Below, in pieces: positions 8,480 to 23,393 of a DNA stretch of 24,161 nt (within the stretch, counting starts at the first letter, position 1; each line of letters starts with the position of its first letter). The translations under genes were made by a program, and so were the position numbers. The stretch is taken from positions 1 through 24,161 of the IMG/VR virus record IMGVR_UViG_3300020281_000127; one strand, written 5' to 3'. The stretch is from a virus. The notes beneath the pieces are model-generated. The model was given only the letters and a program-made list of their open reading frames with translations, did not search any database and was not told where the DNA came from.

Positions 8480-8562
8480 TGCCAAAAGGTATCGGAACTT
8501 ATGGATCTAAACGTGGAAGGCCACCAAAGAAAAATAAGAAAAAGAAAAAAGGAAAGAAGTAA
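8479..8562 (+). CDS. 27-residue AT-hook miniprotein
   Basis: A strong AAGGAGG lies five bases before ATG 8479. The frame is 27 codons long and ends in a TAA that overlaps the holin ATG. The sequence begins MPKGIGTYGS and continues KRGRPPKK followed by a lysine-rich tail. RGRP flanked by basic residues is the core of the AT-hook, which binds the minor groove of AT-rich DNA. Half the residues are Lys or Arg. The excellent ribosome site and the tight overlaps show that it is translated. It may condense phage DNA or act on host chromatin; that is inference. Confidence 0.75.
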   Translation: MPKGIGTYGSKRGRPPKKNKKKKKGKK

Positions 8563-8978
8563 TGTTGGAACAATTAATAAAACCGGCGTCGGATATTATC
8601 GGTAAGTTTGTAAAGGATAAAGATCTACAAGCAAAACTAGATCACGAATTACAAACTTTATTTCATCAAGCCAATATGGCCCAGATTGAGATCTTAAAAG
8701 AGGACGCTAAATCTAAAAATTGGTTTCAAAATTCGTGGAGGCCCTCGGTAGGTTGGATCTGTTCAATCGCCCTGGGCGTTCATTTTATAATTTTGCCCCT
8801 GGCGGAATGGGCCGCAAGATTGTCAGGTATAAATGTAGATCTTCCAGAATTTGATTTTACTCAATTATCAACAATCTTAATGGCTATGTTAGGAATGTCT
8901 GGCCTTAGATCCTATGACAAATCAAACTTACTAAAAGAAAAAACAAAAGTAGCTAAAGAGATAATAGATCCTAGATGA
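8562..8978 (+). CDS. Holin, GTA-type 3TM family
   Basis: This 138-residue protein should form the membrane lesions that trigger lysis and release the endolysin. It matches the pattern of the three-TM holin family first named from gene transfer agents: an amphipathic N-terminal helix ending HQANMAQIEILKEDAK (35-50), then the conserved WRPSVGWICSIALGVHFII (59-77) starting a membrane segment. A further membrane segment runs over about 100-115, followed by GMSGLRSYDK at 111-120. The WRPxVGW and GLRxYxK signatures are the strongest evidence. The endolysin lies two genes downstream. Confidence 0.9.
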   Translation: MLEQLIKPASDIIGKFVKDKDLQAKLDHELQTLFHQANMAQIEILKEDAKSKNWFQNSWRPSVGWICSIALGVHFIILPLAEWAARLSGINVDLPEFDFTQLSTILMAMLGMSGLRSYDKSNLLKEKTKVAKEIIDPR

Positions 8979-9169
8979 AAATGTACTTATCAGAAATAGT
9001 ATGCGTTTGCTCTCAAGGAGACGAGCATTTATTTTCTGGGCCAATAGTCAAAGCGAATAGTTATGAAGAGGCCCAGGCACAAGCAAGGATAATGAATAAG
9101 GATCTATATATCGTCGGAGAATACTTTGGAAATCTAGGAGCGGAATATGAACACCTGGGAGTTTCCTAA
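8975..9169 (+). CDS. Small protein between holin and endolysin, unrecognised
   Basis: This encodes 64 residues. It overlaps the holin by four bases (ATGA) and the endolysin by 23, so it is co-translated with the lysis genes. An N-terminal strand (MYLSEIVCVCSQGD) is followed by SGPIVKANSYEEAQAQARIM and DLYIVGEYFG. The central part resembles the gene at 7510-7719 (ADSLEEAES), suggesting a shared small alpha/beta domain. Two cysteines lie near residues 10 and 12. The function is unknown; its place suggests a link to lysis, perhaps as an antiholin or endolysin partner. Confidence 0.65.
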   Translation: MKMYLSEIVCVCSQGDEHLFSGPIVKANSYEEAQAQARIMNKDLYIVGEYFGNLGAEYEHLGVS

Positions 9170-9524
9170 TTTTTCTGAAAAAGAATTCGCTTGTCGTCAT
9201 TGCGGCAAATGCGAAATGGATCTTGATTTTGTAGCCAAACTGCAAGAACTTAGATCCAAGGTAGATCTACCAATGAAGATCTCTTCTGGATATAGATGTA
9301 AAGATCATCCGGTAGAGGCAAAAAAAAGCGCTCCAGGAACGCATAACGAGGGCGTAGCGGCCGATATATTGTGTTTTGGATCTAATGCCCATAAAATTTT
9401 GAGTATGGCTTTAGAACTTAAATTTCAAGGAATAGGAGTTAATATGAAGGGAGATCGTAATTCCAGGTTTATTCATTTAGATATGAGTAAGAAAAAATCT
9501 AGGCCTACGATTTGGAGTTATTGA
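9147..9524 (+). CDS. Endolysin, M15-type zinc peptidase
   Basis: This 125-residue enzyme should cleave peptide bonds in the peptidoglycan cross-links. The pattern is that of the small M15 peptidases (Peptidase_M15_3 type): KEFACRHCGKCEM near the N-terminus, ISSGYRCKDHP at 45-55, then GTHNEGVAADI at 64-74 and FIHLDM at 108-113. The zinc ligands are expected to be H66, D73 and H110. The protein ends RPTIWSY, as is common in the family. There is no signal peptide, so it depends on the holin at 8562. The start overlaps the previous gene. Confidence 0.9.
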   Translation: MNTWEFPNFSEKEFACRHCGKCEMDLDFVAKLQELRSKVDLPMKISSGYRCKDHPVEAKKSAPGTHNEGVAADILCFGSNAHKILSMALELKFQGIGVNMKGDRNSRFIHLDMSKKKSRPTIWSY

Positions 9525-13057: not shown

Positions 13058-13441
13058 ATGGCCGGATTTAGTAATTATTTAGAAACAAAAGTCTTAGAAC
13101 ACGTTTTCGGAGGATCTGCATATACCGCTCCTACGACACTATACGTCGCGTTATTTACTGCGGCGCCAAGTGACACGGGCGGCGGAACGGAAGTCTCTGG
13201 AGGCGCATATGCACGTCAAACGGCGGCTTTCACGGTGTCTGGAGATACCGCGTCAAATACTGCGGCAATCGAGTACGCTACTGCAACTGCGGATTATGGT
13301 ACTGTCGTTGCAATGGGAGTATATGACGCATTAACCTCTGGCAACTTATTAGCCTATGGTACTTTGACAACTTCTAAAACAGTCTCTAATGGAGACGTGT
13401 TTCGTTTCAACGCAAGTGCAATAGATATAACGCTCACATAA
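13058..13441 (+). CDS. Small conserved structural protein, tail-associated
   Basis: This encodes 127 residues with AAGGAGG before the ATG. The N-terminus FSNYLETKVLEHVFGGSAYT is followed by TLYVALFTAAPSDTGGGTEV, SGGAYARQTAAFTVSG and WGTV-like repeats ending FRFNASAIDITLT. This all-beta pattern (LYVALFTxxP..GG.EVSGG.YARQ) is common in phage tail or decoration proteins. I cannot assign an exact structural place. It is followed within 16 bases by the large fibre-like gene at 13458, and the two probably act together at the virion surface. Confidence 0.75.
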   Translation: MAGFSNYLETKVLEHVFGGSAYTAPTTLYVALFTAAPSDTGGGTEVSGGAYARQTAAFTVSGDTASNTAAIEYATATADYGTVVAMGVYDALTSGNLLAYGTLTTSKTVSNGDVFRFNASAIDITLT

Positions 13442-13457
13442 TACAGAGGATTAAGAT

Positions 13458-15398
13458 ATGGCCTCTGTTCCTTATGGATCGTATTTTTACGGGCGTTCCA
13501 GATATGGAACGCCTGGATATCATTTTGCGGCTTGTCAGATCTCTGCGTCTGCAACCGTTAGCAATACACCTACGGTTAATTTTAATTTACAAGGCCCAGA
13601 GACAATAGCGGCCGTCGCGTCAGTAGCGGCGATCGGCAATCATAAATTTCACGGAGCGGCAACTTCGCAACAAAATTCAGATCTCTTAGTAATCTCTGAA
13701 AGATTGAAGTTAGGGATCCCTTTACCAATTACAGAAACATCTAGCACGTTCGCCCAGGGCATACAGATAGATCAAGCCGGAGTATTTATACTTCCTCAAT
13801 CTGGCCTGGCGGCAACCGGTAATCAAATAGATCTGGGAGCAACGAGTATTTCTGCGGCCTCAAATAATATTACGTCCGGCCTTAGAATTAAATTAGGCGC
13901 ATTACCAATATCCGCAGTCTCAGGATCTACTCAAGCCGGTTTAAAAATTAAATTAGGCCAGGTAAATCCTTTAGGTACTTCATCAACAATTAGTGTCGGT
14001 ACTCAAATAGATCTAGGAGCCGTCTCAAGTGCTAGAGAGATCTCAAACGTATCAACGTTAAATCCGCAATATACAACTCAGGATATTCCTATGGTCGTTC
14101 ATTTACAAAACGGCCGATATGTCTATGAACATACAACCTCGGATTTTACAAACGTTCAAACGCCAATGTCTCTAAAACCGAACTACACGGTCAGACTGCT
14201 ACAAGATCAATCGTCAAATACAAACTACAAAGTTAATTTATCAATGGTACCAGACGGGCCAAGAAATACGTCTCGAGCGCATATTTCATTAAGAAAAGAC
14301 GCGTCTAATAATGAATATTTACAAATTATGGCCGCAAGTACCTCGAACACACCTGGAGGCACGGGATCAAATGAAAGAAGGACTTTATATTTTTATGATC
14401 TAGATACAAACGGCGGACAACCGCAATTTACCGGATCAGATCATCCTTACGTTTTTCCGACAACAACTGTCACTAAAGATCCTGGAATAACGGCAACTAT
14501 TGGATCTGTACTTGTTTCTGGTTTTCAAATGCTAACTATCAATGGAAAACCGGTTTATCAATATAACGGAGACACTAGCGCAGATATGGCCTCTGGAGTA
14601 GGCCTTACAAATTGGAAGGGCATACAAGCAGACGGATCCGCTCAAACTGCAACCGGGCCAGGATCCGGAAGTAGTCAAACATATGCGGTCACGGTTGCGT
14701 CAGGTACTAACTCATATGGATCTGGTAATAAATATTATTTAGACGGCGTAGTATCGCCAACAATTAACTTTGTTCCTGGCAATACTTATACGTTCGATCA
14801 ATCAGATCCTAGTAATGCAAATCATCCATTAAGACTTTCAACAACTCCTAATGGTACGCACGGCGGAGGATCTGAATATACAACTCAAGTCACAACATAC
14901 GGAACTCCTGGATCTTCTGGAGCCTATACAAGCATTGTTGTCACTTCATCAACGCCAAACTTAAATTATTATTGTCAAATTCATTCTGGTATGGGCGGCA
15001 CGATCAACGTATCGTCTGGATCTGCTTTTGTTTATGACAGTATTATTTATCCTGGACAAACTTATTACGGAACTCCAGGGCAACCAGGCGCTTACTTGGG
15101 AATAGCAATAACCGCAAGTACGCCAACTTTATATTATTTTAATTACGATAATGCCAATATGGGCGGGATCGGAAATATATCTACCGACGTTGGCGGCGTC
15201 GAAAGTGTATTCACGGTTGTTGGACAAAGCGCATTATCTCCGAACTCCGGACTATCTTCTATCGGTGTAAGAAGATATTTTGGTGTAGGCAATGTCGCGG
15301 GATCATCTAGTATTTCCGCCGACGGTGAATTAAAATGGATAATTCAGAATGTTCCTCAAACAGAATGGACGGAGCAAAAACTAGCAAATACACCATAA
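13458..15398 (+). CDS. Large beta-rich tail protein with 20-residue repeats, a Lipoprotein_15-like and a cupredoxin-like domain
   Basis: This 646-residue modular virion protein has no signal peptide. Residues about 82-189 hold tandem repeats with an exact 20-residue period (Ile at 104, 124, 144, 164 and 184; Leu-Gly at 126, 146, 166 and 186), suggesting a stalk of stacked strands. Residues about 308-393 (LYFYDLD and MLTINGKPVYQYNGD) resemble the Lipoprotein_15 repeat. Residues about 408-519 look like a cupredoxin: NTYTFDQSD, then H456 in NHPLRL, then YYCQIHSGMGG with C506, H509 and M512, which is a plausible type 1 copper site. Residues 521-575 are a degenerate second copy without Cys and His. 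It probably serves in adsorption; the copper role is inference. Confidence 0.75.
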   Translation: MASVPYGSYFYGRSRYGTPGYHFAACQISASATVSNTPTVNFNLQGPETIAAVASVAAIGNHKFHGAATSQQNSDLLVISERLKLGIPLPITETSSTFAQGIQIDQAGVFILPQSGLAATGNQIDLGATSISAASNNITSGLRIKLGALPISAVSGSTQAGLKIKLGQVNPLGTSSTISVGTQIDLGAVSSAREISNVSTLNPQYTTQDIPMVVHLQNGRYVYEHTTSDFTNVQTPMSLKPNYTVRLLQDQSSNTNYKVNLSMVPDGPRNTSRAHISLRKDASNNEYLQIMAASTSNTPGGTGSNERRTLYFYDLDTNGGQPQFTGSDHPYVFPTTTVTKDPGITATIGSVLVSGFQMLTINGKPVYQYNGDTSADMASGVGLTNWKGIQADGSAQTATGPGSGSSQTYAVTVASGTNSYGSGNKYYLDGVVSPTINFVPGNTYTFDQSDPSNANHPLRLSTTPNGTHGGGSEYTTQVTTYGTPGSSGAYTSIVVTSSTPNLNYYCQIHSGMGGTINVSSGSAFVYDSIIYPGQTYYGTPGQPGAYLGIAITASTPTLYYFNYDNANMGGIGNISTDVGGVESVFTVVGQSALSPNSGLSSIGVRRYFGVGNVAGSSSISADGELKWIIQNVPQTEWTEQKLANTP

Positions 15399-18021: not shown

Positions 18022-18882
18022 ATGGCGTGGAATTTAGTAAAAATGTATCAAAGCACAAAACACCTTCTTACAACATATGGAGAAGGCAATGATTTAGAGC
18101 CAATGGTTGATGATCTAACCGGCGAAAGTCGTATAGATCACGTCGTAAGTTTATATCGAGAAATGAATATACCTTTTGGCCCTATGATGATGTTAAAAAA
18201 TAGAGTTTCTGAAAATGGTAGAAATATAATTTGGGGCCGCAAATGGAATGATCGAGAATATGTAGAAAAAAAAGTGATCCCAACCTTAATGAATTATGAG
18301 TATTTGAAATCGCTACCGGCTAACACGGTTGGCGCACACTATTATCATTTAATAAAAGATTACGGAATTGAAAAACTTTATAACCAAAGATTTAAAAAAG
18401 AAGAGAGAAGAGAAAATTCTAAATTTGATAATGTTTATAATTCATTTAGTGACGACATAAGAGAGAACGCCTCCAGGCATTTACTTTTATCGCACGATAT
18501 CTGGCACGTTTTATTTAGATACGATACTACGCCAATGGGCGAGGCTATGATCCAAACTATTACGGCCAGGATCTTTAATTTTTTTCCGCCTCACTTAACC
18601 GGGTTTTTTGGTACTTGGAAAATGGCAAGAAAAACTAAAAGCAAATTACCTTGGAAAGTTTGGCGAGAGTGTTTGAAATTATCTAAAGGTGTAAACAAAG
18701 AACTAGCATTATTTTCTCCAATAGAATTTTTAGAACAAGATATTCAAGAAGTGAGAGATCGTTTCAATATTTTTACGCCAAAAGTTTATGCAGAGTATGT
18801 AAAAACTTTGCCTAAATTTGCTCGTATGGACACGATACATCCAAATTATGATGATAAGTTATGGAACGCAGAAGTTATATAA
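18022..18882 (+). CDS. Coq4-like ubiquinone-biosynthesis family protein
   Basis: This 286-residue protein keeps the hallmark of the Coq4 family. HDIWH at residues 158-162 is followed after 11 residues by E174, which is the HDxxH-x11-E metal-binding motif, in the context SHDIWHVLFRYDTTPMGEAM. Upstream, YLKSLPANTVGAHYYHLIKD (94-113) matches the family's LxxLPxGTLGxxYxxF segment. In eukaryotes Coq4 is needed for ubiquinone synthesis and has been linked to C1 decarboxylation of the ring precursor. In phage the product could support host respiration during infection, but activity is not shown. It extends about 110 residues beyond the motif. Its end overlaps the next gene. Confidence 0.85.
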   Translation: MAWNLVKMYQSTKHLLTTYGEGNDLEPMVDDLTGESRIDHVVSLYREMNIPFGPMMMLKNRVSENGRNIIWGRKWNDREYVEKKVIPTLMNYEYLKSLPANTVGAHYYHLIKDYGIEKLYNQRFKKEERRENSKFDNVYNSFSDDIRENASRHLLLSHDIWHVLFRYDTTPMGEAMIQTITARIFNFFPPHLTGFFGTWKMARKTKSKLPWKVWRECLKLSKGVNKELALFSPIEFLEQDIQEVRDRFNIFTPKVYAEYVKTLPKFARMDTIHPNYDDKLWNAEVI

Positions 18883-21728: not shown

Positions 21729-22083
21729 AGAGGAATGGGAGATCGCAAAAAAGTATATTGCTCCGGCAATAAAACATCAGGATCTCTATCTTTTAGAAGA
21801 TGTAGAGGCTAAAATATACGACGGAACTTTCCAACTCTGGCCAGGAAAACAATCTGCTTTTATAACCGAGGTCAATTACTTTCCGCAAAAAACAACAATC
21901 AACTTATTATTTTGCGGAGGCAAATATGAAGAGTTAGAGGCAATGTTGCCTTTAATTGAAGAATTCGCCAGGAGGATAGGCGCAACACGTTTTTACGGAG
22001 GAGGCCGCCCTGGTTGGATAAAAAAAATTAAACACCTTGGGTTTAAGTCAGAAAATTTAATAAGTAAGGATTTAGAATTATGA
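21694..22083 (+). CDS. GNAT-like / T7 gp13-like internal virion protein
   Basis: This encodes 129 residues from ATG 21694, overlapping the gene before by 35 bases, with AGGAG eight bases upstream. The layout (FITEVNYFPQKTTINLLFCG strands, then KYEELEAMLPLIEEFARRIG helix, then TRFYGGGRPGWIKKIKHLGF) resembles acetyltransferase-fold proteins that in T7 are represented by the internal virion protein gp13. The GGRPGW loop replaces the acetyl-CoA loop, so enzyme activity is doubtful. It sits with other ejection-type genes, which supports a virion role. The family assignment is from pattern memory. Confidence 0.65.
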   Translation: MPETLQQLSYPKEEWEIAKKYIAPAIKHQDLYLLEDVEAKIYDGTFQLWPGKQSAFITEVNYFPQKTTINLLFCGGKYEELEAMLPLIEEFARRIGATRFYGGGRPGWIKKIKHLGFKSENLISKDLEL

Positions 22084-23393
22084 GTAAAGGAAAATCAACA
22101 ACTACCACCACCGTTCCAGGATATCAAAAACAAGCCTTCCAGGATCTATATGCAAAAGGCCGACAAGTAGCAAATATTCCTTTTGAAAGCTACAAAGGCC
22201 AAATGGTAGCGGATCAATCTGCTAACACTAAGGCCGCAAGTGCGGGTAATAGGCAACTGTTTAATCAAGCAAATAGATTTGATCCAACCGCCGGTCTTAT
22301 GGGTATGGTTGGGGCCGGAGCCAACGTGAGAGATGTTGGTTTTAATCCTATGTTGGGCCGCGCTCAAGACGCGTCCGCTAATCAAGTAAACAGAGGATCT
22401 ATTAGAGATCTTGATAGAGGAGAAATTTTAGGAAAAATTGGAAACTATCTAAATCCTTATCAAAACATTGTGACGGATCAAGGCGTCAGAGATCTAAACA
22501 GAGCGAGATTAATGCAATTACAATCAGATCAAGACGCGCAGATTGGATCTGGCGCTTTTGGAGGATCTAGAGGAGCATTATTAGAGGCCGAAACAAATAA
22601 AAATTTCCAAGAACAAGTATCAGACTTTGTAGCAGAACAAAATCAAAGAGGTTTTGACACGGCCGCACAATTAGCAACGTCGGACGCTCAAAGAGCGCTC
22701 CAAGCAGATACAGCAATGCTAGACGCAGATAGAGCGGTTAGTATGGCCAATCAAGCGGCCTTAAATCAGTTTGCTTTAGCAAATCAAAATCTAGGTCAAA
22801 ACTACTTTAATAAATTAGCAGATCTACAATTTGGCACGGCCCAAATGGATCAACAAACCGCTTTAGATCAAGCCAGGTTAGACGACGCGGCTTTAGACAG
22901 ATCCAGGGCATTATATGGAGATATCCTGGGCGCTCAACAAACGGGATTACAAGGATTGCAACAATCAGGTTTACTAGATCAAAACTATGCACAATCTATA
23001 TTAGACGCGCAGAGATCTGAATTCGATAGAAGATTGAAAACACCTTACGATCAATTAGGCGCTTTAGCCTCTGCGGTTAGCGGTGTTCCAATGTTAGGCG
23101 GACAGACTTCGCAGAAAAAAACCGGATTGGGAGACGTTCTAGGAGCCGGTTTACAAGTAGCGAGTTTATTTTCAGACGAACGCTTAAAAACAAACATAAC
23201 TTATTTATATACACAAAAAGACGGACACGAAATATATCAATGGGATTGGAACGACAAGGCCAAGGATATTGGTATAACTGAAGATTATCCGACAATAGGT
23301 GTAATCGCACAAAGAGCGGAAGTTATTAATCCAGACGCAGTATTCCAGGATAAAGATACCGGATACTTATGCGTCAATTATGAGAGGTTATAA
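22080..23393 (+). CDS. Probable ejection protein with C-terminal S74 domain
   Basis: This 437-residue protein starts MSKGKSTTTTTVPGYQKQAF and continues as a very long Ala/Gln/Asp-rich helical region (residues about 110-330), as in podovirus internal or ejection proteins. Residues 365-370 are SDERLK, and the remaining 68 residues (IYQWDWNDKAKDIGI, then TIGVIAQRAEVINPDAV) form a short Peptidase_S74 domain ending YERL. S74 normally matures fibres, and finding it on a helical, non-fibre protein is uncommon outside marine phages. It overlaps the previous gene by four bases (ATGA). Confidence 0.75.
   Translation: MSKGKSTTTTTVPGYQKQAFQDLYAKGRQVANIPFESYKGQMVADQSANTKAASAGNRQLFNQANRFDPTAGLMGMVGAGANVRDVGFNPMLGRAQDASANQVNRGSIRDLDRGEILGKIGNYLNPYQNIVTDQGVRDLNRARLMQLQSDQDAQIGSGAFGGSRGALLEAETNKNFQEQVSDFVAEQNQRGFDTAAQLATSDAQRALQADTAMLDADRAVSMANQAALNQFALANQNLGQNYFNKLADLQFGTAQMDQQTALDQARLDDAALDRSRALYGDILGAQQTGLQGLQQSGLLDQNYAQSILDAQRSEFDRRLKTPYDQLGALASAVSGVPMLGGQTSQKKTGLGDVLGAGLQVASLFSDERLKTNITYLYTQKDGHEIYQWDWNDKAKDIGITEDYPTIGVIAQRAEVINPDAVFQDKDTGYLCVNYERL

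Follow-up and report, generated by a model that had tools for sequence, protein, structure and literature searches.

A predicted type 1 copper site in a cupredoxin domain of a marine podovirus tail-fibre-type protein

Among the cupredoxins with which the locus described here invites comparison, amicyanin is a soluble periplasmic electron carrier. In phages, the copper proteins described in the literature that we found are, in the text accessible to us, metabolic proteins and not parts of the particle: cyanophages carry the plastocyanin gene petE (available portions of PMC2984593 and PMC5083919). For the particle itself a metal site has been proposed in the case of iron, with HxH motifs in T4 gp37 and in marine phage fibres suggested to bind it under the Ferrojan horse hypothesis (accessible part of PMC11705849). 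A search of mostly open-access literature returned no paper on a cupredoxin or type 1 copper in a phage tail fibre or baseplate, or on a cupredoxin in a marine phage. Here, for a tail-fibre-type protein of a marine virus, we computed the fold of one domain, the conservation and register of its putative copper ligands, their joint loss, the exchanges at the axial position and the modular history of the protein. The explanation that we favor, and hold to be probable, is that residues 405-519 of this protein fold as a cupredoxin whose type 1 copper site is complete and which a marine podovirus displays on its tail fibre, where the domain would act as a stabilised or adhesive fibre module.

The window, by which we mean the whole stretch of 24,161 bases analysed (IMG/VR record IMGVR_UViG_3300020281_000127), is a virus record with podovirus-type phage terminase, portal, head and tail genes. 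The reading frame of interest has a gene of the GP4 fibre I type on one side and, on the other, a fibre gene that encodes an S74 chaperone:

13058..13441, plus strand: upstream gene, podophage GP4 fibre I (gp80)-type protein (PF23140, E 1.6e-43)
13458..15398, plus strand: tail-fibre-type protein of 646 amino acids that carries the cupredoxin domain (PHROG tail fibre families phrog_30742, 2e-19, and phrog_693, 3e-9)
13458..14072, plus strand: N-terminal repeat part of that protein, residues 1-205, with GTQIDLGA-like repeats conserved in whole-protein relatives (alignment A5)
14670..15014, plus strand: intact cupredoxin-like domain, residues 405-519 (AlphaFold2 model; Foldseek and VIA-align matches)
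14823..14825, plus strand: codon of H456, putative N-terminal His ligand
14973..14993, plus strand: putative ligand loop C506-x2-H509-x2-M512
15186..15398, plus strand: C-terminal fibre tail, residues 577-646, common to the relatives L249 and L245-L248
15417..16580, plus strand: downstream gene, fibre with an S74 intramolecular chaperone (PF13884, E 3.3e-12)

Several other genes on the plus strand of the window deserve mention in their own right. A protein of 286 amino acids (18022-18882) matches PF05019 Coq4, a family of ubiquinone biosynthesis, in its C-terminal part (residues 157-252, E 1.4e-10) and had no tblastn match in 50,697 phage records; it is possibly a new metabolic gene in a phage. 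The genes at 8562-8978 (GTA_holin_3TM, E 4.3e-15) and 9147-9524 (M15 peptidase, E 9.9e-12) are likely lysis genes, and a further protein with a C-terminal S74 chaperone domain (E 1.6e-8) is encoded at 22080-23393.

Fold of the intact domain and its register with known copper proteins

An AlphaFold2 model of residues 405-523, built from 63 aligned sequences, has a mean pLDDT of 97.0 and a pTM of 0.89; it contains no metal, and the cupredoxin assignment rests at the level of the fold. The best PDB match by VIA-align is 2dv6, the N-terminal domain of the Hyphomicrobium Cu nitrite reductase (Z 9.4, rmsd 2.7, 100 residues aligned, 22% identity). Of the best 50 rows listed, 49 are cupredoxin-fold copper proteins, and the list consists mostly of two-domain laccases and rusticyanin at Z 7.4-8.5, a range in which values below 8 are by themselves unspecific, although the rows are nevertheless almost all copper proteins. 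The remaining row is factor VIII, whose A domains have the cupredoxin fold. Foldseek likewise ranks a three-domain Cu nitrite reductase first in the PDB, at E 9.8e-4 the sole match at or below 0.001, followed by CueO, 2ux6 (a pseudoazurin with an engineered amicyanin loop, at rank 5), rusticyanin and laccases, in a list that also includes some antibody and arginine deiminase chains. By the model and both searches, residues 405-519 form a Greek-key beta-sandwich of the cupredoxin type. The ligands also follow the cupredoxin order of an N-terminal His and then a Cys-xn-His-xn-Met/Gln loop between the last two strands: in the numbering of the model, H52 lies ahead of strand 54-57, and strands 98-102 and 110-114 flank the C/H/M loop. 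A first-pass annotation made from the sequence had assigned a cupredoxin-like domain to 14679-15014 (residues 408-519). The fold and the PDB matches bear this out, and the structure prediction that it had suggested gives a cupredoxin fold with no fold-level sign that the four residues lie far apart.

By sequence, known cupredoxins match weakly, and antibody chains are scattered among them. The profile of alignment A2, which holds 63 phage and cellular domains, finds in the PDB the plastocyanins 3bqv, 1baw, 3cvb, 2w88 and 4r0o at E 0.16-0.39, pseudoazurin at E 0.36 and a copper oxidase at E 0.75 amid antibody chains; two of the plastocyanin alignments pair the four ligand positions exactly (H with H, C with C, H with H and M with M), at E-values too weak to stand alone. 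Comparison by hhalign of A2 with 13 proteins of the Pfam Copper-bind family gave E 4.4e-5 and a probability of 69%, the 13 being drawn from 14 matches over the cut-off, with domain ends set by eye and L242 excluded. One Copper-bind (PF00127) protein, L238, has the spacing of the window domain, C-x2-H-x2-M (CGPHPDM). Sequence-only searches of the PDB yielded one chance match (E 0.22) for the single window domain, nothing of use for the P-SSM7 gp9 domain, and mostly antibody chains with one plastocyanin (E 0.56) for the bacterial protein L168. We regard the antibody-chain matches as chance, with the YYC strand of another sandwich in common. Pfam and NCBIfam have no model for the intact domain. 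PF00127 matches weakly in 4 of the 32 members of the phage-only alignment A1 (best E 0.037), and two other families, CBM_4_9 (4 of 32 members, best E 1.5e-4) and At5g54830 (3 of 32), were set aside since they disagree with the structural matches.

The plastocyanins among these profile matches, together with the petE genes that cyanophages carry (PMC2984593 and PMC5083919, in their available portions), could suggest that a metabolic plastocyanin gene of the cyanophage type was fused to a fibre. We judge this origin highly improbable. Neither the window domain nor the whole protein has a Pfam match to Copper-bind, the loop is C-x2-H-x2-M as against C-x2-H-x4-M in the aligned plastocyanins, and the family is also found in fibre and baseplate genes of Pelagibacter and Methylophilales phages.

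Conservation, joint loss and exchange of the ligands

The first-pass annotation had read H456 and C506-x2-H509-x2-M512 as a full type 1 ligand set. These positions are exact (codons of the loop: C506 14973-14975, H509 14982-14984, M512 14991-14993), and all four residues are invariant in both alignments. A1, in which 32 phage domains range down to 35% identity to the window domain, has six invariant columns of 160 (F446, H456, Y504, C506, H509 and M512); A2 also has six, of 177, with the four ligands among them. The invariance of these columns rules out a chance motif. The only recurrent Cys of the domain alignment is in the C506 column.

Across the wider set of profile matches the ligands go together. 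All four ligands are present in 501 of 590 profile matches (439 loci), three in 7, one in 7 and none in 75. In a non-redundant set of 92 domains (below 65% identity, with at least 60 filled columns and rows with fewer excluded), 81 have all four, three have three, none has two and eight have one or none, and the individual residues are kept in 87 of 92 (H456), 84 of 85 (C506), 84 of 85 (H509) and 82 of 85 (M512), from rows whose HMM-based selection is biased towards domains that kept the motif. The eight with one or no ligand include truncated or split rows (L249 is split and L259 cut), their C-terminal part is unaligned in seven, and the only clean full-length loss among them is the first domain of L188. 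In the three domains with three ligands the Met column is occupied by Gln (L184 and L191) or His (L402). These proteins are natural variants of the axial position, and Gln is the axial ligand in stellacyanin-type cupredoxins.

The searches differ in how far they depend on the motif. In GTDB the C/H/M motif was itself the search pattern, so this set is no independent test of those residues; H456, which lies outside the pattern and is therefore independent, is kept in 84 of 84 domain matches. In a profile search of the order to which genome G002 belongs, a set less dependent on the motif, 80 of 86 matches keep all four ligands. A second set less dependent on the motif comes from six patterns derived from HTVC028P, one of which (YCTSHSNM) contains it; these gave 80 matches, with all four ligands in 78 and His at the Met column in the other two. 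With patterns derived from gp9, all four are present in 154 of 219 matches, and the C-terminal ligand part is absent in 64. Judged from these sequences, the four ligands are kept or lost as a unit.

One alternative is that the domain is a virion beta-sandwich that holds no metal, or holds zinc or iron, with ligands that derive from exported cupredoxins and have persisted for the sake of packing or through fast spread of the module between phages. Ig-like sandwiches often serve as spacers in phage fibres, and the 64 gp9-pattern matches that lack the C-terminal ligand part speak for such a domain. However, few columns of the family are conserved as well as the ligands, down to about 30% identity, the ligands are kept or lost together, and the Met is exchanged only for Gln or His (three non-redundant cases), both of them possible axial ligands, when packing alone would predict Leu or Ile at the Met and Ala, Val or Ser at the Cys. 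We therefore consider a metal-free, zinc or iron sandwich unlikely. The fold, the ligand register, the joint loss and the axial exchange of Met for Gln or His lead us instead to predict that the H456/C506/H509/M512 site very likely binds type 1 copper. In the model that we favor, H456, C506, H509 and the axial M512 would form this site on a C-x2-H-x2-M loop, whose spacing is that of amicyanin. The first-pass annotation had gone on to suggest that a copper site on the virion could help to bind a surface metalloprotein or stabilise the fibre; of that interpretation it is the copper-site part that is strongly supported, by the same four lines of evidence, with Met giving way to Gln or His only.

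A second, split cupredoxin and the spread of the module

The window protein contains a second cupredoxin, split, without ligands and wrapped around the first, together with an insert resembling PF03640; the first-pass annotation had missed both. The additional parts are:

14073..14273, plus strand: N-terminal half of the outer split cupredoxin, about residues 206-272 (MAFFT alignment on L249 and L245-L248; AlphaFold2 and VIA-align of L249)
14280..14651, plus strand: PF03640/SCO0930-like two-repeat domain within the split cupredoxin, about residues 275-398 (PF03640, NF040526 and motifs)
15021..15185, plus strand: C-terminal half of the outer split cupredoxin, about residues 522-576 (tblastn; identity to L249)

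The intact domain thus lies between the insert and the outer C-terminal half. In the outer N-terminal half the ligand His is replaced by Tyr (NTNYKV). A tblastn match of the domain to 15060-15185 (50% identity, E 9.5e-9) is a half domain without Cys and His, and aligns without gaps to the intact loop with Asn for Cys, Asn for His and the Met kept (LYYFNYDNANMGG). The architecture of whole-protein relatives explains this half. L249, a protein of 525 amino acids that is 53% identical to the window protein over residues 1-403 of the latter and 51% identical over residues 519-646, has no inner domain, and its residues 200-460 or so align to the cupredoxin family as a single domain, interrupted by about 120 residues after the loop behind the His strand. 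Its ligands, GHP in the first half and YYFCANHPGMGG in the second, show that all four are present across the interruption. MAFFT aligned the corresponding N-terminal cupredoxin half of L249 and of L245-L248 with the family and treated the next segment as an insertion; it placed their C-terminal half on the intact inner domain of the window protein and not on its outer half, and for this reason L249 was folded in place of the whole C-terminus of the window protein. The AlphaFold2 model of L249 has the same strand order on either side of a low-confidence insert (overall pLDDT 58.5; ten-residue blocks mostly 62-89 in the cupredoxin halves, and below 50 in much of the insert). Its best VIA-align match is again 2dv6 (Z 10.0, rmsd 2.9, 106 residues aligned), with the aligned residues spread over 6-261 of the model and 24-137 of 2dv6.

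Other relatives have taken different courses. In L244 the outer His is gone as well, and two intact copies stand in tandem before its contig ends, and L245-L248 have lost all outer ligands and have no intact inner copy. Because ligands are missing from the outer copy and from L245-L248, a copper site is not indispensable in this type of fibre, and these ligand-less domains of cupredoxin fold, one of them in the same protein, count in favor of a sandwich without metal.

The insert matches PF03640 (Lipoprotein_15) at residues 357-386 with 25.9 bits, above the gathering cut-off of 24.4, and NF040526 (SCO0930 lipoprotein) at residues 294-397 with E 1.5e-6 and 27.7 bits, below a cut-off of 275; it carries two Yx[FWY]xxD motifs, YFYDLD and YQYNGD. 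A tblastn search of window residues 205-403 found no match in the phage records. Insert-like domains do occur in SAR86-order lipoproteins (27% identity, E about 2e-6), and in the exported L203 and L205-L208 of that order the insert-like domain directly precedes the cupredoxin domain, as in the window. Together with L220, these make up a set of exported lipoproteins of 305-322 amino acids from SAR86-order genomes that combine the two domains.

The first-pass annotation had mentioned similar sequences in marine phage structural genes, and this is borne out: a tblastn search locates the domain in 181 of 50,697 phage records, and in 107 of these the match spans at least 80% of the query. Most are Synechococcus and Prochlorococcus phages, with Pelagibacter and Methylophilales phages as well. 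The matches fall on genes for tail fibre, baseplate gp7 and gp9, structural or hypothetical proteins, and annotations as fibre, baseplate or structural protein are present in isolates. A structure search of predicted viral proteins with the domain model gave 69 matches at E <= 0.001; among the best 50 of the 69, the entries that bear names are for the most part tail or structural proteins of marine phages, and a pithovirus protein is one of the few exceptions. In IMG/VR at least 596 stretches encode relatives (596 of the 599 pattern matches listed), and in GTDB genomes relatives are encoded in 125 of 150 pattern matches, of which 80 were kept. The plasmid collection searched for the domain contained no match.

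Many of the cellular relatives are exported proteins of marine bacteria. L168 consists of a signal-peptide-like start and one domain in 134 amino acids, L158, L178 and others are proteins of about 180 amino acids with a lipobox-type start (CGGG in SAR86 lipoproteins), and L150 and L167 contain two and three copies, respectively. In the order of G002, the genome that holds the SAR86 contig L158, 71 of 151 genomes have a domain match. Of the 168 cellular domain rows in which every ligand is present, 60 lie in reading frames that a simple lipobox pattern marks as lipoprotein-like. Many SAR86-order genomes also encode an exported protein of mostly 630-670 amino acids (L209-L214, L224-L228 and others) with a distant member of the domain, whose loop is CDFHSGM or CGVHSGM (E about 1e-9 to 1e-14).

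In a tree of 113 rows and 108 columns, viral and cellular rows are intermixed, with at least eight virus/cell label changes among the labelled rows; the tree is poorly resolved (57 of 110 inner branches have low support), has no starred set around the window, and includes among its rows the 40-column outer half of the window protein. A module held in common by viruses and cells is also what inheritance of ligands without a metal would lead one to expect. On sequence relationship, the domain is a member of a marine cupredoxin family that has no name yet and is found in phage fibre and baseplate proteins and in exported lipoproteins of marine bacteria.

Probable copper on the virion and comparison with known systems

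The presence of relatives in many marine phages and in exported bacterial proteins suggests that copper is probably present on the tails of some virus particles in the ocean. Since the phage protein would be made in the copper-poor cytosol, we envision that copper is most likely loaded after lysis. Once loaded, the domain would serve as a stabilised beta-sandwich within the part of the fibre that adheres, and its surface or its copper may help the fibre to hold the host surface. Three considerations make us favor this stabilising or adhesive role: the domain is a module of the fibre, copper sites are gained and lost between close relatives, and there is no known redox partner.

Alternatively, the site could be a working redox centre through which, at adsorption, the fibre would swap electrons or copper with proteins of the host surface, such as relatives of the exported lipoproteins. 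His/Cys/His with Met or Gln as the axial residue is the electron-transfer set. The fibre domain has a complete set of this kind, with Met or Gln axial in the family, and the same domain occurs in exported proteins of marine bacteria; marine phage tails have, moreover, been proposed to bind iron at HxH motifs (accessible part of PMC11705849). The virion, however, has no evident electron supply and no known partner, and the copper site is dispensable in the close relatives L245-L248, so that we think a redox function quite unlikely. In its most far-reaching form the idea would hold that working type 1 copper centres sit on the fibres and baseplates of many ocean phages, take up their copper from sea water or the lysed host, and at adsorption exchange copper or electrons with related copper proteins of the host surface, or bind them, the domain having been traded between exported proteins of marine bacteria and fibres; it would be the copper equivalent of the Ferrojan idea for iron. 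This wider picture is, in our estimation, rather unlikely.

If a conserved type 1 site on fibres is real, the presence of metals on marine virions becomes a directly testable question, and virion copper sites would add virions to the marine copper inventory. An exported domain of marine bacterial genomes that has no Pfam or NCBIfam model gains a name. The split cupredoxin, into which domains have been inserted and whose ligands have been lost or renewed, also illustrates clearly how fibres evolve through the insertion of modules.

How the locus stands to described systems can be followed part by part. Its insert, at about residues 275-398, resembles the PF03640/SCO0930-type lipoproteins with Yx[FWY]xxD repeats, but the window copy lies inside a split fibre cupredoxin and has no lipoprotein signal. 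With the HxH iron fibres the protein shares a metal site proposed for the tail fibre of a marine phage; the window site lies in a single domain and includes a Cys, whereas theirs is of His only. An HxH iron site in the window protein itself was rejected, as its His residues, at 22, 62, 65, 215, 225, 275, 329, 456, 468 and 509, form no HxH. Plastocyanin, cyanobacterial or from phage petE, has the same His/Cys/His/Met in the same order and register, but on a C-x2-H-x4-M loop and in a soluble metabolic protein that is no part of a virion. The three-domain Cu nitrite reductase (2dv6) provides the best structural match for both the intact domain and the split domain of L249, and there the domain is part of an enzyme, unlike the phage protein, which has no catalytic domains. 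The amicyanin-type cupredoxins share with the window domain both the fold and the C-x2-H-x2-M loop. The window domain differs from amicyanin in lying inside a fibre and lacking a PF00127 match, and its gene belongs to a phage fibre module in place of encoding a secreted carrier beside methylamine dehydrogenase.
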